NCBI GenBank assembly: GCA_903918315.1
Contig: CAIXEA010000208.1
Location: forward strand, 1 to 64,000
Reading direction: 5' to 3'
Origin: an uncultured Acetobacteraceae bacterium
Lineage (GTDB): Bacteria; Pseudomonadota; Alphaproteobacteria; Acetobacterales; Acetobacteraceae
DNA: 64,000 nt
Shown here: positions 85 through 53,159 of the stretch, piece after piece
Layout of the letters: every line of letters begins with the position of its first letter
How positions within the stretch are numbered: the stretch's first letter is position 1
Translations under genes and position numbers: made by a program
The notes under the pieces: generated by a model
Database searches by the model: none
What the model was told of the DNA's origin: nothing
Seen by the model: the letters and a program-made list of their open reading frames with translations, nothing else

Positions 85-858
85 TCAGATTTCTCGTCGC
101 GCCGGAATCCCCCGATTCAACTTTGAGCGGACAGGCTCTAGGGACGGCGACAGACCCTTGGCCGGCTTGGGACCCGGAGGTGCGAAACTGCCCCGCAGGG
201 GTTGACGCGGGCTCAAGGCCACCAAGGTCTCTGCCATCCGCACCGCGCAACTCACCCCGTCGAGGGTTGGCACTGGGATGTCGGCTGCCACTTCCCGAGC
301 CAGTCCGGCGAGGGGACCGCCGCCGAAGATGATCACTTCGGCTTCGTCCTCCTCGATCGCGCGCATCGTTTCAGTCAGAAGCGCGGCGCGGAATTGATCC
401 TTGGCCTGGGTGATATCCGGAATTGGCACGTCCAGCGCCCGCACGCTGGCGAGGCGGCCGTCCAATCCATTGTCCCGCGCGCATTCCTGGTACCAAACGC
501 GCAAGCGAGACGTCAGGCACACGATGGAATACCGCCGCCCAAGCATCCAGGCGGTCAGCATCGCGGATTCCGCGAGTCCGACAACTGGAATTGTGGCCAG
601 TTCGCGGGCCGCTGCGAGTCCAGGGTCACCAAACGCGGCGACAATCGCAGCGTCATGACCGTCCGCATGGCACGCAAGGGCTTCCAATACCGCATGGGCT
701 GCAATCGCGGCCTCGACCCGGGTTGCGATGTATTGCGGGCCAAAGCCGGCCGTGACGGCGGTGATTTCGGTGGTGGCGGAGGCGAACCGGCGTGCTTCCG
801 CCACCATCGCATGGGTCATGGACTCGGTGGTGTTGGGATTGATGAGCAGAAGCTTCAT
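85..858 (-). CDS. Asp/Glu/hydantoin racemase superfamily protein
   Basis: This 257-residue protein opens MKLLLINPNTTESMT, the hallmark start of the HyuE/allantoin racemase group of the Asp/Glu racemase superfamily, and carries the FGDPGL motif at about residues 76-81. The ATG at 858 is preferred over longer in-frame starts because it gives this family N-terminus. The two cysteines that act as acid and base in hydantoin racemases are absent. The first position is in AIVAAFGDPG (residues 71-80, Ala instead of Cys); the second is in IIFGGGPLAGLA (about 177-187, Gly instead of Cys). Racemase activity is therefore doubtful and substrate unknown. The last ~40 residues are a basic, proline-rich tail unusual for the family. 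A dispersed hairpin element (886-934) separates it from the co-directional upstream gene. Confidence 0.8.
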   Translation of the reverse strand: MKLLLINPNTTESMTHAMVAEARRFASATTEITAVTAGFGPQYIATRVEAAIAAHAVLEALACHADGHDAAIVAAFGDPGLAAARELATIPVVGLAESAMLTAWMLGRRYSIVCLTSRLRVWYQECARDNGLDGRLASVRALDVPIPDITQAKDQFRAALLTETMRAIEEDEAEVIIFGGGPLAGLAREVAADIPVPTLDGVSCAVRMAETLVALSPRQPLRGSFAPPGPKPAKGLSPSLEPVRSKLNRGIPARREI

Positions 859-885: not shown

Positions 886-934
886 GATCGCGGGATTCAG
901 ACCTTCGGTGATTCCACCTGCGGTCATCCCGCTC
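886..934. repeat. Dispersed intergenic hairpin repeat, copy A
   Basis: A 49-bp element running from GATCGCGGGATTCAG to CATCCCGCTC. GCGGGAT/ATCCCGC form the outer stem, GACC/GGTC an inner stem and GGTGgaatCACC a central arm. Close copies occur at 52440-52488 and 52495-52542, and a shortened one at 16254-16287. The last base is the first base (plus-strand order) of the stop codon of the minus-strand gene 934-2346, so on that mRNA the hairpin follows the stop immediately. It resembles REP-type elements. Its function, perhaps 3'-end formation or mRNA protection, is inferred. Confidence 0.8.
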
Positions 935-2346
935 TAACGCCCGGTGACGATGCGTTCGACGAGTTGCTTCACCGTCGGTACGAAGCCGTTGGAATAGAAA
1001 GGGTCCTGTCCGAAGCGAAAGGCATTGTGCCCGCTGAACACCAGACTCTGTTCCAATCGCTCTGGGTTGTCACCCTCATGCACCGCGCTTTGCAATGCTT
1101 TCTGAATGCAAAAACTCCGCGGATCGGCGCGCTTGCCGGTGCTGAAATCAGCCTCGTGCTGCGACCAGTTGGAGAAGCGGCAGGTACTCAGGCAGCCCAT
1201 GCAATCGGCCTGGTCCTTGACGATCTCCTGCGCCTTATCAGGCGTGACGAAGACCAAGGTCGAGTCCGGCGTACGAAGCGTTTCGGTAAATCCGCCCGCC
1301 TCATAAGACAGCGCCCGCTGCCGATCGGCTGGGGCGACGTAGACGATGCGCTTGCGGGGCCCGACGGCGAGTTCCGCGAGATGCTCCCCAATCGGTTCAC
1401 TGGAATAAGCGATCTGACGGTCCGAACGTTCACGCAGTTCCTGAATGAAATGGTTGTTCACCGCGCTGGAATAGAAGCCGGTCGGACTGAAGCGATTGAG
1501 GAATACGTCTCCCTCTTTGAGGGTCAGGAGCCGCTGCTTCCAGGCTGAGCCGATGGGGCTTTCCTGTGTCAGCAAGGGGCGTGTGCCGAACTGGAAGGCG
1601 ATGGGGCCCAGCTCAGGGTTGTCGATCCAGTGCTCCCATTCTTCCAGCCACCACACCCCTCCGGCCATGATGATCGGCGTATCGTTCAGGCCATAGGCCC
1701 GCATCTGCTTACGCAGTGCGAGAACACGCGGATAAGGATCTTCGGGCTTGTTGGGATCTTCACTGTTTGACAGGCCATTATGGCCGCCGGCCAGCCAGGG
1801 ATCTTCATAGACCACGCCGCCAAGCAGTCCCGCGGCCTTGGAATAGGCCCGGCGCCACAGCGCATTGAAAGCGCGGGCCGAGGAGATGATGGGATAATAG
1901 TGGACGTTGAATTTCGTCGCGATGTCAGACAGGCGATAGGGCATGCCCGCACCGCAGGTGATGCCGTGAACCAGGCCCTTGGCCTGCTCCAGAACGGCAT
2001 CGATGATGCGCTCCGCGCCCCCCATCTCCCAGAGGATATTGGCGTGGATTCGTCCTTTACCGCCTGTGACGTCGTGCGCGCGGCGCGCCTGCGCCACAGC
2101 CCCCTTGATCGCGTAGTCGATGAGCTCCTCATGCCGCTCCCGGCGGGTACGGCTATGATAGATCTGGGGAATAAGCTTGCCGTCGTCGTCATAACTATCA
2201 GCGTTTACCGCGCTGAACGTACCGACGCCTCCGGCTTTGGCCCAATGACCCGCGGACAGACCATTGGAAATCGCAACACCTTTCCCACCCTCCACGAGCG
2301 GGAGAACCTCGGCGCCACCCATTCTGATCGCATTGATCGCTTGCAT
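934..2346 (-). CDS. Nitronate monooxygenase-like (NPD family) flavoprotein
   Basis: This 470-residue protein resembles the 2-nitropropane dioxygenase/nitronate monooxygenase TIM-barrel family, which binds FMN and oxidises alkyl nitronates. The N-terminal half contains GGVGTFSAVNADSYDDDGK and a glycine-rich ITCGAGMPY segment. The start at 2346 is preceded by AAGGA about ten bases upstream; longer in-frame starts would add a low-quality arginine-rich extension. The C-terminus is distinctive, with C382-x2-C385-x3-C389 followed by C413, a spacing that could hold an iron-sulfur cluster or zinc and is not part of classical nitronate monooxygenases. The physiological substrate is unknown. It lies downstream of pnp on the same strand with a 130-bp gap, and its stop codon runs straight into hairpin repeat copy A. 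Confidence 0.75.
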   Translation of the reverse strand: MQAINAIRMGGAEVLPLVEGGKGVAISNGLSAGHWAKAGGVGTFSAVNADSYDDDGKLIPQIYHSRTRRERHEELIDYAIKGAVAQARRAHDVTGGKGRIHANILWEMGGAERIIDAVLEQAKGLVHGITCGAGMPYRLSDIATKFNVHYYPIISSARAFNALWRRAYSKAAGLLGGVVYEDPWLAGGHNGLSNSEDPNKPEDPYPRVLALRKQMRAYGLNDTPIIMAGGVWWLEEWEHWIDNPELGPIAFQFGTRPLLTQESPIGSAWKQRLLTLKEGDVFLNRFSPTGFYSSAVNNHFIQELRERSDRQIAYSSEPIGEHLAELAVGPRKRIVYVAPADRQRALSYEAGGFTETLRTPDSTLVFVTPDKAQEIVKDQADCMGCLSTCRFSNWSQHEADFSTGKRADPRSFCIQKALQSAVHEGDNPERLEQSLVFSGHNAFRFGQDPFYSNGFVPTVKQLVERIVTGR

Positions 2347-6371: not shown

Positions 6372-9300
6372 TCAGTGAAAATCGCTGGCCTTATAGACCC
6401 GATACCACATCGTGTCGTCGGTGGCGGCGATTGCGTCGCCAAGGGTGTGCGCCGGCACCCCGTTCTGGTTCAACTGCACCAGCTTGCCGTTACGCCAGAT
6501 AACCGCGAACGGCGTATCACCCAGGATATTGTCCCCCATGAAGACCTGCAGGGCCCGCTGACCACTGTCGATCCCGCCACAGATGAAATTCTTGATGCTC
6601 GCATTGGCGAAGTCATTGAGATACCCGCGATACCGGATGGAAGGCGGGCTGTTCAGACCATGCCCCTGTATGGCCAGTTCCTCCAGCGCGGCGTGGCTTT
6701 GCAGGGTCCGTTCCAGTGCGAGGTAAGATCCCTGCACCAGCGCCGCCTGGGGATTAATCCCGAGCGTCGCAGCGTTGATCTGCATCGATCCGGCCATGGC
6801 GTCGAGTTGCCGCTGCACATCCTCCCGGTCGATCTTCTGCTGGGTGGCGCTGAGGCTGGTCAGGCCAGTGCTTTCGAAGGTGATTTCCGCATTGCCTTCC
6901 GCCCGTTGAATCGCGGTCAGTGAGCCGCCAAAGCCACCCAGCATCTGCTGGTAGTAACCCTGCCATTCGGCCGCGAGGTTGGTCGCCGTATGGAACAGCC
7001 CATCGGTTCCCGCCGTCCAGGTATGGCCATTGGCGGTCATGGTGCTGCTGATCAGGCTCCCATCCAGTGTCACGATCTGGCCGGGCCCCGCCACGATCGT
7101 GCTGATCGCCGCCGCACCTGGCGCGGCCGCGCCTGGGATCAGCACGACCGCACCGGTGGCCGTCGCGGTCTTGCTGAAATCGGAGGCGACCAGAACCTGC
7201 CGGTACATCACGTTGTTGAGGGCAGCGGCCGATTGATCAGCCGAGAATGTCACATCGCCGTTGAAGCCCAACTGCTGCCAGGCCCCGTTCTGCCAAACGG
7301 AGGCAAACGGGATATCGGACATCACCAGATCCTGGAAGAAGTACGGCAACGCGGCCCGGCCATTGTCGAGGCCACCGCCCACGTAGTCGGTGGTCCAGTC
7401 AGCGCCGCTGATAAAGTCACCCCAGGCCCCTTTGTATTGGACGGTCGGGGGATTGACGATCCCATGTCCCTGCAACGCCAGTTCTTCCAAAGCGACATTG
7501 GACTGGATGGTGTGCTCCATCTGCAAATAGCCATGCTCGGTCAGCGGCGCGTTTGCGGCGATCCCGAAGGTCGCCTGATCGATCTGCATGGCGGCGGCCA
7601 TGGCGTCGATCTGGCGTTGCACGTCCGCGCGATCCGCCGCCTCCTTGTCAGCGCCGTTCCAGGCGGTGTTGATGCCGGTGTTTTCAAATACGGCTTCCGC
7701 GTTGCCCTCCAGCCGCTGGGTCGCGGTCAGCGTATCACCATGACCGGCCAGCATGATTTGGTAATAGGTCCGCCATTCCATCTCCAGGTTCGTGGTCGTC
7801 TGGAACACGCCGTTGGCATCAGCGGTCCAAACGTGACCATTGACCGTCATGGTCGCGGCGATCGTATTGCCTGACAGAGTCGTGATCGTGCTGGGACCAG
7901 CCGGCACGGCCAGGGGCGGCATCTGGCCCGGGATTTTGAAATCGGACGCTTTATAGAGCCCTGTGAACATCGCCGCATTCGCGTTCGCGACCGCCGCCTC
8001 CAGCGTGCTCTCATGGTTGCCGTTCTGATTGAGCTGGATGATTTCGCCGTTCTGGGCAACCGTCGCGAACGGCAAATGCGTCATAATACTGTCATCGAAT
8101 AGATCGGCGATGGCCCGCTCCCCCGCATCCGGCCCGTTGCCGACATAGAGCGTGTGATTATCGACGTTGTGCTGGAAATCGTTGGTGTATCCGTTGTATC
8201 GCGGGGCGTTCGGGCTATTGAGCCCGTGCCCTTGGATCGCCAGCTCCGCCAACGCCGCATTGCCCTGAAGCGCATGCTCCACTTGCAGGTATGCCGCCGC
8301 GGTCAGGGGTGCATTGCCCAGTCCAAGCGACGACATCGTGGCAGCGACTGCATCGAATTCGCGCTGGGCGTCAGCACGATCGATGGCCTGCTGCCCCTCA
8401 CTGACGTCGTCCAGGCCGGTGTTCAGAAAAACGACCTCCGCATTGGCCTGGAGACGCTGCATTGCCGTCAGCGGTGCCCCTGAAAGGGCGGTCTGATAAC
8501 TGTTGTACCATTCCAACGTCAGGTCAGTGGAGGTCTGATACAGCCCATTGGCATCCGCCACCCAGGTGTGCCCGGATGCAACAAGCGTGGTCGGGATGAC
8601 CTGGCCCGTTAATGACAGCATCTGACCAGGGCCCGGCGTGGGTGAGGCCGGCGGTGTGGCGGTTGCCATCGCCGGGCTGACATAGATGACCGGACCGGTG
8701 GTCGTGGCGACCTTGCTGAAATCGCCGGCTACGAAAACCCGGGTGAACATCGACTCATTGGCGCCAGCCACGGTCACCGACAGCAGGTCCTCGGCGGCGG
8801 CGTTCTGATTCAACTGCTCTTCATGCCCATTCTGCGCCACGGTCGGAAACGGCAGATGGGTCAGAATGATGTCGTCAAACAGGTTCGTGACCGCGGTTTC
8901 ACCGGAATCCAACCCGCCGCCCACGAAGAACGTTGTGTTGTCGCTGTTGTTCTGAAAATCGTTGGTATATCCGTTGTATTTGGCTGAGGGCGGGGAATTC
9001 AACCCATGCCCCTGCATCGCCAGCTCCTCGAGCGCGGCATCGGACTGCAAGCCGCTTTCGATGTTCAGATAATCCTGATTGGTCAGCAGCGCGCCGCCGA
9101 GCCCCAGCCGGGTCATTTCCACCGAGATCGCGTCGAATTCGCGCTGCGCGTCTTCACGGAACGATTGCTGCTTGGCGGCGGTCACGGTGTTGAGGCTGGT
9201 GTTCTCGAACACCGCTTCCGCATTGCCAGCCATGCGTTGGACGGCCGTCAGGCTGGTGCCATTGCCCGCCAGCATCGTCTGGTAGTAACCCTTCCATTCC

Positions 9301-10940
9301 GCGACCAGATCCGTCGTCGTATGAAATTTTCCGTCGGTCCCGATTGTCCAGACATGGGCACCGGCCGTCATGGTATTGGCGATTTCGGCGCCAAAGAATG
9401 TTGTGACATCGCCGACAGGCGGTTGGCCCCCTCCAACCGGCGATGATCCTGGGATGTTGAAATCGGACGCCTTGAGCACCGTCGTAAACCAGGTCGTGTT
9501 GAGCGCGTCGACCGCCGCCTGAAGGGTGCTTTCATTGGCCCCATTCTGATTCAGCTGAATCAGCTCACCGTTCTGAGCTACCGTCGGGAACGGCAAGTGC
9601 GACATGATGGCATCGTCGAACAGATCGGCGATCGCCCGCTCCCCGGAATCATAGCCGGCGCCGACAAACAGCGTCCGGTTATCGACATTGTTCTGGAAAT
9701 CGTTGGTATAGCCGCGGTACCGGACCGATGATGGGTTGTTGAGTCCATGACCCTGCACGGCCAATTCTTCCAACGCCACGTTGTCCTGTAGCGTATGCTC
9801 GAGGGCAAGATAGGTCTGGGTCGTCAACGCGGTCTTGCCGTTCAAGCCCAGGGACTGCATCGCGCCATAGATCGCGTCGAACGCCCGCTGCGCGTCAGAG
9901 CGGTCGATCTGCTGCTGGGCGGCGCTCAGCTGGGCCAGGCCGGTATTCTCAAACACCGCCTCAGCATTGCCCTCCAACCGCTGAATGGCGGTCAAAGACC
10001 CACCATTCCCCGCCAACATGGCTTGATAGTCACTCTGCCATTCGGCCGCGAGGTTGGCCGTGGTCTGGAATGTCCCGTTCGCGTCTGCCGTCCATGTATG
10101 CCCGTTCAGCGTGAGCGTGGACGCAACCGTGCCTCCCCACAATGCGGTGATGGTCGCCCCCGGAAGTGCTACGACCGTTGGCGTCGAGCTGGCAGTGCCG
10201 GCGGTGGCCGAGAAATCCGCCGCTCCATAAACCCGCACCGCACCGGTATCGTCGATCGCCCCGACCGCCTGCGCCAGCGGGTCTTCGTTCGCCGCGTTTT
10301 GATTGAGCTGATCAAACTGTCCATTAATCGCCACGGTCGGGAATGGCAGGTGCGACAGGACGGAATCGTCGAAGAAATCGGCGATCGCCTTCTGGTTGTT
10401 GTTCAGACCACCGCCGACAAAGAGCGTCGTGCTATCCACGTTGTTTTGGAAATCGTTTGTATACCCATTGTATTTGGCCAATGGCGGACTGTTCAGACCA
10501 TGCCCCTGAACGGCCAGCTCATAAAGACTGGCATCGGATTCGATGGTGCGCTCAAGAGCCAGGTAACCGGTCGCCGTCAGAGGGGCCTTGGAGTCCAGAC
10601 CCAATCGCCCCATCGCCGCCCCAATGGCATCATACTCCCGTTGGACATCCATCCGGTCGCGGGCCTGGTCGGCGGTGCTCAGTGTGGCCAGGCCGGTATT
10701 CTCAAAGACTGCTTCAGCATTTCCTTCCAGGCGCTGGACAAACGTTAACGTGTCCGCCGCCCCACTCAGCATAATACTATAGTAATTTTTCCATTCGGAT
10801 TGGAGATCGGTCGTGGTCTTGAAAAGACCGTTGGCATCGGCGGTCCACTGATGGGCTGTGTTGGTGATGGTTCCAGAAATTGTCCCGCCAAAAAGCGTGA
10901 CAACCGTGCTCGGATTCAGCGACAGGCTCGTGTCAGTCAT
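6372..10940 (-). CDS. Giant protein of six ~230-residue tandem modules, unknown family
   Basis: I do not recognise this 1522-residue protein. It consists of six homologous modules at about residues 12-243, 262-494, 512-742, 773-1001, 1018-1255 and 1288-1521, joined by Pro/Ala/Thr/Gly-rich linkers. Each module runs in the same order. It has GHTWTADANG, EW..YYQ.MLAG, QRLEGNAEAVFENTGL, an R.DAQR.FDAI helix, ALEELA.QGHGLN.P, YNGYTNDFQNN.DN.TLFVG, A...LFDD.I..HLPF.TV.QNG and QLNQN, closing with VYKASDF. The protein has one cysteine, few lysines, no signal peptide, no transmembrane segment and no RTX nonapeptide repeats. A strong GGAGGT ribosome-binding site lies upstream of the ATG at 10940. It could be a surface or secreted scaffold (inference from linkers and composition) or a multi-domain cytoplasmic protein. 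Conserved Glu/His in each module could form a site, but none is proven. Confidence 0.85.
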   Translation of the reverse strand: MTDTSLSLNPSTVVTLFGGTISGTITNTAHQWTADANGLFKTTTDLQSEWKNYYSIMLSGAADTLTFVQRLEGNAEAVFENTGLATLSTADQARDRMDVQREYDAIGAAMGRLGLDSKAPLTATGYLALERTIESDASLYELAVQGHGLNSPPLAKYNGYTNDFQNNVDSTTLFVGGGLNNNQKAIADFFDDSVLSHLPFPTVAINGQFDQLNQNAANEDPLAQAVGAIDDTGAVRVYGAADFSATAGTASSTPTVVALPGATITALWGGTVASTLTLNGHTWTADANGTFQTTANLAAEWQSDYQAMLAGNGGSLTAIQRLEGNAEAVFENTGLAQLSAAQQQIDRSDAQRAFDAIYGAMQSLGLNGKTALTTQTYLALEHTLQDNVALEELAVQGHGLNNPSSVRYRGYTNDFQNNVDNRTLFVGAGYDSGERAIADLFDDAIMSHLPFPTVAQNGELIQLNQNGANESTLQAAVDALNTTWFTTVLKASDFNIPGSSPVGGGQPPVGDVTTFFGAEIANTMTAGAHVWTIGTDGKFHTTTDLVAEWKGYYQTMLAGNGTSLTAVQRMAGNAEAVFENTSLNTVTAAKQQSFREDAQREFDAISVEMTRLGLGGALLTNQDYLNIESGLQSDAALEELAMQGHGLNSPPSAKYNGYTNDFQNNSDNTTFFVGGGLDSGETAVTNLFDDIILTHLPFPTVAQNGHEEQLNQNAAAEDLLSVTVAGANESMFTRVFVAGDFSKVATTTGPVIYVSPAMATATPPASPTPGPGQMLSLTGQVIPTTLVASGHTWVADANGLYQTSTDLTLEWYNSYQTALSGAPLTAMQRLQANAEVVFLNTGLDDVSEGQQAIDRADAQREFDAVAATMSSLGLGNAPLTAAAYLQVEHALQGNAALAELAIQGHGLNSPNAPRYNGYTNDFQHNVDNHTLYVGNGPDAGERAIADLFDDSIMTHLPFATVAQNGEIIQLNQNGNHESTLEAAVANANAAMFTGLYKASDFKIPGQMPPLAVPAGPSTITTLSGNTIAATMTVNGHVWTADANGVFQTTTNLEMEWRTYYQIMLAGHGDTLTATQRLEGNAEAVFENTGINTAWNGADKEAADRADVQRQIDAMAAAMQIDQATFGIAANAPLTEHGYLQMEHTIQSNVALEELALQGHGIVNPPTVQYKGAWGDFISGADWTTDYVGGGLDNGRAALPYFFQDLVMSDIPFASVWQNGAWQQLGFNGDVTFSADQSAAALNNVMYRQVLVASDFSKTATATGAVVLIPGAAAPGAAAISTIVAGPGQIVTLDGSLISSTMTANGHTWTAGTDGLFHTATNLAAEWQGYYQQMLGGFGGSLTAIQRAEGNAEITFESTGLTSLSATQQKIDREDVQRQLDAMAGSMQINAATLGINPQAALVQGSYLALERTLQSHAALEELAIQGHGLNSPPSIRYRGYLNDFANASIKNFICGGIDSGQRALQVFMGDNILGDTPFAVIWRNGKLVQLNQNGVPAHTLGDAIAATDDTMWYRVYKASDFH
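6378..10907 (-). repeat. Six tandem coding repeats of ~690-715 bp
   Basis: Module boundaries in bases (minus strand, from the 5' end of the gene) are 10907-10212, 10157-9459, 9407-8715, 8624-7938, 7889-7176 and 7079-6378. Linkers after modules 2 and 4 share an 'F.IPG' opening. Linkers after modules 3 and 5 share 'SK.AT.TG.V...P' and the later GPGQ(M/I)(L/V)(S/T)L. Modules 5 and 6 share an insertion with MQI..AT.GI. These patterns suggest stepwise duplication, probably of two-module units. Confidence 0.85.
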
Positions 10941-16212: not shown

Positions 16213-16253
16213 CCATCGATAGTCCAACGGAGGTCCGCTCTCACCTCTTGTCT

Positions 16254-16287
16254 GATCGCAGAATTCAGACCTGCGGTCATTCCGCTC
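16254..16287. repeat. Dispersed intergenic hairpin repeat, shortened copy C
   Basis: GATCGCAGAATTCAGACC...GGTCATTCCGCTC matches the ends of the 49-bp element at 886-934 but lacks the central GGTGgaatCACC arm (34 bp in all). It lies between the convergent Sel1 gene and paaD. Its terminal TC forms two of the three bases of the paaD stop codon, the same placement as the other copies. Confidence 0.65.
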
Positions 16288-16780
16288 AGTGACATTTGAA
16301 CGCATCGAAGGGCTCCTTGCAGGTCAGGCACCGATGGAGCGCCTTGCAGGCCGTGGAACCAAAAGCGCTGATCCGTTCAGTGCTGGCGCTGCCACATCGC
16401 GGACAGTCCGGATGCTCTTCGCCAAACAATGCGCGCCGGCCAGCGCTTCCAGCGGGTGGCGCGATCCCATAAGCGAGGAGCTTACGCCGCCCAGCCTCAC
16501 TGAGCCAGTCGGTGGTCCAGGCGGGAGCGAGCACCTGCACGACCCGCGATCGCGGAAATCCGGCGCGTGACAGTGCGGCCTCAATCTCCCACGCGATCAC
16601 CGCCATCGCGGGACAGCCGGAGTAGGTGGGCGTGATGGTGACGGTGACTCCGTCCGCATCGAGCGCGATGGTGCGAAGCACCCCAAGGTCGTCGATCGTC
16701 AGCGCGGGGATTTCGGGGTCTTCGACCGCAGCGACGGCGGCGCGGGCGCGCGCCAGCGCCCGATTCAGGTCATCTACCAC
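16286..16780 (-). CDS. paaD: 1,2-phenylacetyl-CoA epoxidase assembly subunit PaaD
   Basis: This 164-residue protein has the MIP18/DUF59 fold of PaaD (AVEDPEIPALTIDDLGVLR, TPTYSGCPAM). The C-terminus is a cysteine-rich zinc-ribbon-like segment (CPRCGS ... CLTCKEPFDAFKCH) typical of PaaD. PaaD is needed for maturation of the epoxidase, probably in iron or Fe-S handling. Its start overlaps the end of paaC by seven bases, so translation is probably coupled. It is the last gene of the paaABCD unit here; no paaE follows. Confidence 0.95.
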   Translation of the reverse strand: MVDDLNRALARARAAVAAVEDPEIPALTIDDLGVLRTIALDADGVTVTITPTYSGCPAMAVIAWEIEAALSRAGFPRSRVVQVLAPAWTTDWLSEAGRRKLLAYGIAPPAGSAGRRALFGEEHPDCPRCGSASTERISAFGSTACKALHRCLTCKEPFDAFKCH

Positions 16781-51719: not shown

Positions 51720-52424
51720 CTGCCCACCGAAGCCCCTCTGTTCAGCCCTGATGAGTGGCGGGCCATCGGCCTGACGCTGGATGTTGCCATGCGCGCGGTG
51801 GTGCTGGATCTGCCCCTGGCATTGGCTCTCGGCTTTGTCCTGGCCCGCGGCCGGTTCATGGGGCGGGCGGTGCTCGACACCGTGACGCATCTTCCGCTGG
51901 TGCTGCCGCCTGTGGTCGTCGGCTGGTTGCTGCTGTTGCTGTTCGGGGTGCATGGGCCCGTCGGGGCGCGGTTGCAGGCCTGGTTCGGCATCCGGCTGGT
52001 GTTTACCGAAGCGGGCGCCGTTCTGGCCTGTTCGGTGATGATTTTGCCGCTGATGCTGCGCGCGATCCGCCAGTCGCTGGACGCGGTTGATCCGGGGCTG
52101 GAACAGGCGGCGCGTTCGCTGGGGGCAGGGGCCTGGGACCGGTTCTTTTCGATCACGCTGCCTTTGGCGGCCCCGGGCGTGCTGGTGGGGGCCATCACCG
52201 GGTTTGCCGCGGCGCTGGGGGAATTTGGCGCGGTCATCACCTTCGCTGCCAATATTCCGGGCCAAACGCAGACACTGCCGTTGGCCATCTACAGCGCCCT
52301 GCAAAGCCCCGGGGGGGAGGCGGTTGCCGCCCGGCTGTCGCTGGTGTCGGTTTGCCTCGCGGTTGTCCTGCTGGTGTTGGCGGAACGGCTTGGCCGAGGC
52401 TTGCGCGTCCGGCTTGGTCGCTGA
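51720..52424 (+). CDS. modB: Molybdate ABC transporter permease ModB
   Basis: The 234-residue permease has about five transmembrane helices and an EAA loop (EQAARSLGAGAWDRFFSITLPLAAPG), with LPLVLPPVVVGWLLLLLFG and GEFGAVITFAANIPGQTQTLPLAIY typical of ModB. ATG 51789 would cut off the first helix's N-terminal part. Reading from CTG 51720 gives LPTEAPLFSPDEWRAIGLTLDVA, matching the usual ModB opening. AGGAG (51709-51713) is six bases before that CTG. No ATG/GTG/TTG lies between the upstream in-frame stop and 51789. modA and modC are absent on either side within the window. Confidence 0.9.
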   Translation: MPTEAPLFSPDEWRAIGLTLDVAMRAVVLDLPLALALGFVLARGRFMGRAVLDTVTHLPLVLPPVVVGWLLLLLFGVHGPVGARLQAWFGIRLVFTEAGAVLACSVMILPLMLRAIRQSLDAVDPGLEQAARSLGAGAWDRFFSITLPLAAPGVLVGAITGFAAALGEFGAVITFAANIPGQTQTLPLAIYSALQSPGGEAVAARLSLVSVCLAVVLLVLAERLGRGLRVRLGR

Positions 52425-52439
52425 ACCCGATCAGAGCGC

Positions 52440-52542
52440 GATCGCGGGATTCAGACCTTCGGTGCTTCCACCTCCGGTCATCCCGCTCTTGCCTGATCGC
52501 GGGATTCAGACCTCCGGTGTTCCACCTCCGGTCATCCCGCTC
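52440..52542. repeat. Two tandem copies of the dispersed hairpin repeat (copies D1, D2)
   Basis: Copy D1 (52440-52488) and D2 (52495-52542) are nearly identical to each other and to copy A (886-934), with a period of about 54 bases. Each can fold with GCGGGAT/ATCCCGC, GACC/GGTC and a central GGTG/CACC arm. D2 ends on the first base (plus-strand order) of the stop codon (CTA, 52542-52544) of the minus-strand methyltransferase gene. Confidence 0.85.
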
Positions 52543-53159
52543 TACAGCTTACGCAGAACCACTTCGATCGCTGCGTCGGTCAATGGCGTCCGGGTCTGAT
52601 CGAAGCCCCGCCCGGCGAGCTGATGGCGGTAGCCGTGATCCGCGAGTTCGACCTTCAGCGGCTGCACCAGGTCGTTCACTTCGGTCAGCAAGGCGAACAT
52701 GTTCACCGATACCGGCGACCAGGACCGCCGCTTGCTCAGGGTCCAGCTGGTTTTGTGATCGGAATTGAAGGCGGACGGCCATTGCCCTTGTTCATACAGG
52801 TCCTCATCCGGAACGGCGAACACCAGATGCCCGCCGGGCCGGACCACCCGGATCCAGTTGCGCAGGGCGATCAGGGGATCGCGCACATGCTCCAGACAAT
52901 GCGAGGAGTAGCAGAAGTCGAAGTGATTGTCGGACAGCGAATCCAGCGTCTGAGCGTCGCCGTCCCCGACGTCAAAAAGGCGCAATGTGCTTATGCGGGG
53001 AAAGAACTCGGCATAGAGCGCCAGGGAATCCGGCCCCGGACCGATATCGAGGCCGGCGCCGACGAACCAGCGGGTGGCGTAGCGCGCGTCGAACAGGCGC
53101 CGCGCGGTGGCGATGCCTGTGGCACCGGGGATGCCCTGGGTGACGGTCAGTGCTGCCAT
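52542..53159 (-). CDS. Class I SAM-dependent methyltransferase
   Basis: The 205-residue protein contains a Rossmann-type methyltransferase pattern: GLDIGPGPDSLALYAEFF (SAM-binding region), then LRLFDVGDGDAQTLDSL, DFCYSSHCLEHVRDPLIALRNWIRVVRPGGHLVFAVPDEDLYEQ. The CLEHV motif is typical of methyltransf_11/25-like enzymes; substrate unknown. ATG 53159 is preceded by AGGAAAG. Confidence 0.85.
   Translation of the reverse strand: MAALTVTQGIPGATGIATARRLFDARYATRWFVGAGLDIGPGPDSLALYAEFFPRISTLRLFDVGDGDAQTLDSLSDNHFDFCYSSHCLEHVRDPLIALRNWIRVVRPGGHLVFAVPDEDLYEQGQWPSAFNSDHKTSWTLSKRRSWSPVSVNMFALLTEVNDLVQPLKVELADHGYRHQLAGRGFDQTRTPLTDAAIEVVLRKL

Follow-up and report, generated by a model that had tools for sequence, protein, structure and literature searches.

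The window, by which we mean the whole stretch of 64,000 nucleotides that was analysed, contains at positions 52440-52542 an array of two tandem repeat units. A methyltransferase gene on the minus strand ends in this array, and a convergent ABC transporter permease gene lies on its other side. Copies of the same repeat were found at two further minus-strand gene ends, and the features of the three loci were as follows (the arms and subfamilies of the repeat are described below).

52440..52544 (units 52495-52544 and 52440-52489), minus strand: two direct tandem arm-1 units, subfamily A (repeat family D4, covariance model, folds)
52542..52544, minus strand: stop codon TAG of the methyltransferase gene, TA being the target dinucleotide and G the element's first base (sequence, gene calls)
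52542..53159, minus strand: methyltransferase domain protein, gene ending in the array (PF08241, PF13489, gene call)
51789..52424, plus strand: ABC transporter permease, convergent gene on the array's other side (PF00528, gene call)
886..936, minus strand: single arm-1 unit, subfamily A, giving the G of the stop TAG at 934-936 (model, sequence)
934..2346, minus strand: nitronate monooxygenase-like gene, ending in the unit at 886..936 (PF03060, gene call)
85..858, minus strand: Asp/Glu/hydantoin racemase, next gene downstream on the same strand (PF01177, gene call)
16250..16293, minus strand: decayed arm-1 unit with an internal deletion; TGA stop at 16286-16288 (model 38.3 bits, sequence)
16286..16780, minus strand: paaD-type protein gene, ending at the decayed unit (PF23451, PF01883, gene call)

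A 25-mer of the repeat core was recovered at four places in the window with at most three mismatches and at none in 100 shuffles, so that the presence of the repeat at all three loci, as had been predicted, was beyond chance. The two units of the 52440 array, about 55 bp apart, were hit by the covariance model at 52436-52494 (80.4 bits) and 52491-52548 (75.8 bits), and the single unit near the start of the window was hit at 882-940 (83.5 bits). The foldability claimed for these copies was reproduced on the minus strand, with -28.4 kcal/mol (z -4.7) at 886, -25.7 and -23.7 kcal/mol (z about -3) for the array and -14.5 kcal/mol (z -2.4) for the 16254 copy. Also as described, the repeat edge supplied bases of the stop codon at each locus: twice the G of TAG, and once the A of the TGA at 16286-16288, which is the first base of AGCGG of the decayed copy. 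The TGA stop of the permease gene lies a few bases outside the array. The unit at 886..936 occupies the gap between the nitronate monooxygenase-like and racemase genes; the racemase start was set at 858 by eye, the start given by the script (927) falling inside the repeat. All copies in the window were arm-1-only units of subfamily A. An Rfam scan of the window returned a tRNA only and no match for the repeat. Elsewhere in the window, at 6372-10940, a minus-strand gene of 1,523 codons contains internal repeats (families D1-D3), which are long and spaced by about 750 bp. As an observation the original prediction was confirmed; its interpretation, a 3'-end RNA element or a REP-type mobile element with strict target preference, was partly supported.

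Copy number, anatomy and GANTC sites

A 21-base core of the repeat gave 45 forward and 27 reverse matches across the 241 contigs of the genome (5.04 Mb), and the reversed pattern gave none. With a covariance model built from 31 copies at least 147 copies were listed at E values up to 0.5; 150 of 4,649 candidates were scored, and the last five copies listed had E > 0.02. By a motif rule 83 of the copies were assigned to subfamily A and 64 to subfamily B. Together they formed 122 arrays, 103 of them single, 14 double, four triple and one quadruple. The full unit measured about 104 bp from TA to TA and was built as TA-GAGC, arm 1, linker, arm 2, GCTC-TA. Both arms are hairpins: that of arm 1 shows covariation and holds two GANTC sites, and that of arm 2 is near-perfect. 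The element was short, non-coding and dispersed in many copies, as is expected of a MITE.

Arm 1 was seen in tandem at several loci (L130, L132, L081, L069), with up to four units set about 55 or 62 bp apart and no arm 2 between them. Several contigs (C52, C166, C67, C23, C31, C112, C197, C241) start or finish inside an element or less than 100 bases away from one. Such contig ends suggest that the element breaks the assembly, so that the draft could lack an IS copy.

Among the 121 copies of exact model length 96 had GANTC at the loop site and 112 had it at the second site, the background being 2.1 GANTC per kb with the elements included. When 18 diverse copies were aligned, GAATC was the only run of five invariant columns (18/18). 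In arm 1, 10 of 15 stem pairs were changed on both sides and 95% of the cells were paired, compared with 81% in shuffles and at most 55% in slid versions; this alignment keeps one deleted copy (row L101). One ORF for a RAMA-domain methyltransferase was found in the genome, and among the control genomes Caulobacter alone matched. On the basis of this domain we take the enzyme to be probably CcrM. Because arm 1 is a conserved, covarying hairpin, a putative effect of the element on mRNA ends is possible.

Placement at stop codons and the insertion target

To the window we added 108 regions with flanks, which together covered the copies, and genes were called by a codon-usage script. The predicted placement at gene 3' ends held for 71 of the 122 arrays, in which an edge completes the stop codon of a called gene, but not for the other 51, which touch no called stop. 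At the left edge a same-strand gene stopped in 53 of the 122 arrays, in 44 of the 53 at one identical base, the stop being TAG in 43 arrays, TAA in seven and TGA in three. An intact right edge gave the stop of a convergent gene in 22 arrays, and both edges gave a stop in four. Counting only the single copies whose right edge was intact (36), a stop was made at the left only in 9, at the right only in 16, at both edges in 4 and at neither in 7. Since either end can make the stop, orientation is not fixed, and the shared orientation reported for the three loci was apparent only; the window copies agree in orientation because they are arm-1-only units. The genome-wide consensus search, which was expected to return copies at stops in one orientation, returned many at stops, but among full-length copies not in one orientation. 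Edge stops reading TGA (as TGAGC) were seen at window positions 16286-16288 and at L142, L114 and L341; TA insertion gives no direct explanation of them, and they possibly arose by decay of TAGAGC.

Removing one TA from the copies with both TAs intact restored YTAR in 23 of 25 cases. In the one-sided copies the base beyond the far TA made the original stop TAA or TAG in all left (8/8) and all right (10/10) cases; this test covered 8 of the 9 left and 10 of the 16 right copies, the remainder having an altered edge or an offset. What precedes TAR on the gene side is a base that the stop codon leaves free; it was C or T in 19 of 21 cases versus 35% of 148 other TAR stops. By eye the left and right edges of the element differ at Y and R, so only TA can be duplicated. 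The share lying in a stop was 12% for non-coding TAs and 22% for non-coding YTARs.

The closest relative found was G026, with 83% identity for the window methyltransferase. From elements in the source genome 64 adjoining C-terminal segments were prepared and 46 of them searched in G026, and the 30 sites compared were those with an orthologue among the 30 loci returned at ≥70% identity. The G026 orthologue ended at the same codon, plus or minus one, at 26 of the 30 sites. No element was present at that stop at 28 sites, and at the remaining two (L101, L134) a different element occupied the same stop in G026. For the window methyltransferase the orthologue had the same stop codon position, TAA, with no element, and at the place of the window array G026 has CTAA, in which two stops were recognised by eye, TAA for the methyltransferase and TAG for the convergent gene. 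The nitronate monooxygenase-like orthologue ended at the same codon and the paaD-type orthologue likewise, both with TGA and no element. These empty orthologous sites, in a between-species comparison, and the reconstituted sites agree with insertion at TA with TA duplication, as in MITEs of the IS630/Tc1-mariner type. TGA was found in G026 at 10 of the 26 co-terminal sites, one of them the window site that has TGA here too, and in a small control it was found in G026 for none of 10 genes with TAA or TAG here. As the reconstituted sites read TAA or TAG, we took the TGA stops of G026 as a probable later change of stops. Another palindromic element, with ends TAGACCATGATCG, was seen at L308 of G026 and at L033 of G003; one copy of it in G026 lies at a stop (L134) that bears the studied repeat in the source genome.

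Source of mobility and competing explanations

No DDE_3 (IS630) transposase was detected in the source draft genome at E 0.001; a transposase in the same genome is no strict requirement for a MITE. DDE_3 was present in 28 of 33 genomes of the genus, and the number of IS630 copies did not track the number of elements: 13 (G029) and 11 (G006) DDE_3 matches occurred with 1 and 0 elements, and 2 (G003) and 1 (G015) matches with over 90 elements each. A TAGAGC/GCTCTA pair at IS distance was found in 4 of 30 IS630 loci (L355, L356, L359, L379). The left end of subfamily B has its first 13 bases in common with L355, the IS630 of G026, so that the repeat carries, like an IS630-type MITE, the inverted ends of an autonomous IS630 element. 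By eye, subfamily A has 12 end bases in common with ISRm2011-2 of Sinorhizobium, and the right end of the Azospirillum relative described below has 11 in common with a Roseomonas IS630. Nine IS copies were taken and their ends resolved in seven; all seven empty sites were YTAR, six of them CTAG. A CDS stop lay at the IS edge in three (L381, L382, L389) of the four resolved copies with an annotated neighbour. Insertion into TA with duplication of the TA is described for ISY100, of the IS630 family, in the excerpt of PMC2170065, the reference list of which also cites preferential IS630 transposition to the TA in CTAG. Other IS630 elements of the genus (L358, L366) have the ends TAGTAC, likewise TA-G inward.

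An IS5-type source, raised by the YTAR target, was rejected, as both DUF4096 loci were without the TAGAGC/GCTCTA pair. Integron attC sites were set aside because the copies are dispersed between unrelated genes. At L078 and L079 an element end GGCCGTGTGGACGGA stands directly at the CTAG on the repeat's edge, and at L172 GGCCGTGTGGACGGA precedes a DUF4096 transposase fragment.

Matches to the model were found in 17 of 33 genomes of the genus (1 to over 90 each) and in none of 26 genomes outside it, where diverged relatives do exist. A search of plasmids with subfamily B returned a 104-bp relative at 72% identity in Azospirillum, and the same search with subfamily A gave no match. In the genome contig collection a near-exact consensus scan gave no match and a looser consensus pattern at least 96 stretches. 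Twenty Azospirillum regions were taken, 18 of them annotated, and counted singly with mutual orthology disregarded. An annotated CDS stop lay exactly at the element edge in 12 of the 18, in one of them at both edges; H9, H12, H13, H15, H16 and H18 had no stop at an edge, and the unannotated L331 and L332 had a called stop at an edge. With our own gene caller 6 of 13 arrays were at stops in G003, 14 of 32 in the other named records and 25 of 51 in one Acetobacteraceae MAG, which had five more at contig edges. The stop coincidence by this caller was weaker in these other genomes than in the source genome.

We consider it highly probable that the repeat belongs to the non-autonomous MITEs of the IS630/Tc1-mariner kind and entered the TA of TAA and TAG stops. 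The empty sites, the reconstituted YTAR and the IS630-type ends bear out that part of the original prediction which named a mobile element with a target preference, and mobilisation would most likely be of the IS630 type, judging from these sequences. An IS630-family transposase would insert the element at the TA within YTAR, and the TA would be duplicated during repair, the element supplying a G at each end. Read inward, each end begins TA-G, so that a gene whose TAA or TAG was hit would then end in TAG with either end of the element towards it, and where convergent genes share one YTAR both would keep a stop. Selection would remove insertions in genes and promoters, so that most surviving copies would be at stops. 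The arrays may have formed afterwards, as arm 1 was duplicated in tandem and arm 2 was lost.

The same mobile element might also be actively steered to gene ends beyond its YTAR preference, for example by transcription termination or DNA structure. Of the 25 copies with both TAs intact 21 lay in stops, versus 5.9 expected for their tetramers, and an excess was seen in co-directional gaps (7/8 vs 38/111, p 0.005, or 38/119, p 0.003). In convergent gaps, however, where promoters are not at risk, the excess was small (12/14 vs 9/14, p 0.19, or 21/38 on a wider background, p 0.04), and the excess in co-directional gaps can be put down to selection against copies that landed near gene starts; the split by gap type leaves three of the 25 copies at contig edges. 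Directed targeting as read from the stop excess became less convincing once the gap types were separated, and we regard it as unlikely. The YTAR target and the removal of harmful insertions explain much of the stop bias, perhaps not all.

Function at gene ends was the other side of the original proposal: a 3'-end RNA element, acting as terminator, RNase barrier or attenuator, would be kept there for what it does. The stable folds and the gene-end placement agree with this, as does the arm-1 covariation, which would, however, be equally expected of a hairpin kept as DNA. Against RNA function as the reason for placement are the 28 of 30 compared stops that are element-free in G026 and the ability of copies to serve from either end. 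In addition, at the 52440 site, the single site scanned, no intrinsic terminator (GC-rich hairpin followed by a U tract) was found at 52300-52700. Only a slim chance is left to this explanation. Short, dispersed and at times tandem palindromes would also suit a REP-type repeat that depends on a RAYT (Y1) transposase. The search for PF01797 (Y1_Tnp), however, gave no match in the genome here and was positive for 5 of 14 controls, and a full unit of 104 bp with two arms, TA ends and a restored TA target speaks against this reading too. We give it hardly any chance.

Relation to known systems

An IS630-type MITE with CIR-like anatomy that is silent in stops via its YTAR target and TA-G ends would be a new combination of known traits. 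By hitting the TA of a stop and rebuilding the stop from its own first base, such an element could multiply without protein change in a gene-dense genome. More tentatively, and with a low probability for the whole, the elements and their IS630 relatives may be tuned for silent landing, with the GANTC pair coupling movement to CcrM and CIR belonging to the same class. Silent landing would follow from G as the first inward base at both ends, TA plus G being TAG on either strand, and from the palindromic nature of the short YTAR site, through which a single site can serve as a stop for both strands together. Movement would putatively be timed to just after the replication fork, when the GANTC sites are hemimethylated. 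If this were true, the CIR repeats of other alphaproteobacteria would be a methylation-timed, stop-codon-dwelling MITE lineage.

Among repeats with TA termini, RUP of Streptococcus pneumoniae is, as here, a MITE (107 bp) with TA insertions and IS630-like ends (IS630-Spn1); it has another host and sequence, and stop-codon placement is not mentioned in the excerpt of the review (PMC2229807). According to the same excerpt, the MITEs ERIC and Correia/NEMIS are likewise small, have inverted ends and TA termini and duplicate their target, but they differ in sequence and hosts and have no two-arm GANTC structure (PMC2229807). ISRm2011-2 and related IS630-family elements have the ends TAGAGCGGGATG and insert at CTAG/TTAG, like the element here, but they are autonomous, about 1,055 bp long and encode a DDE_3 transposase. 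Our search of the open-access literature turned up no description of such elements inserting into stop codons in alphaproteobacteria. The nearest precedent found for stop encoding is the pneumococcal BOX repeat, which encodes the extreme 3' stop in 36 of 58 overlapping genes; BOX is modular and much longer, and the excerpt gives no target or mechanism for the stop placement (PMC3049150).

Closest in anatomy are the CIR repeats of Caulobacter and Brucella, described in the review excerpt as about 110 bp long, with two arms and a linker, TA ends and GANTC at the terminal loop, in alphaproteobacteria with CcrM (PMC2229807). The element here has the two arms and linker, a length near 110 bp, the TA ends, a conserved GANTC at the terminal loop and a host with a RAMA-domain methyltransferase; the likeness to CIR1-4 is one of described features. 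The target duplication of CIR is listed as '?' in the review table (PMC2229807), whereas a TA target and stop-codon placement were shown for the element here. Its TA target and IS630-type ends suggest a testable answer to how CIR-type GANTC repeats move.
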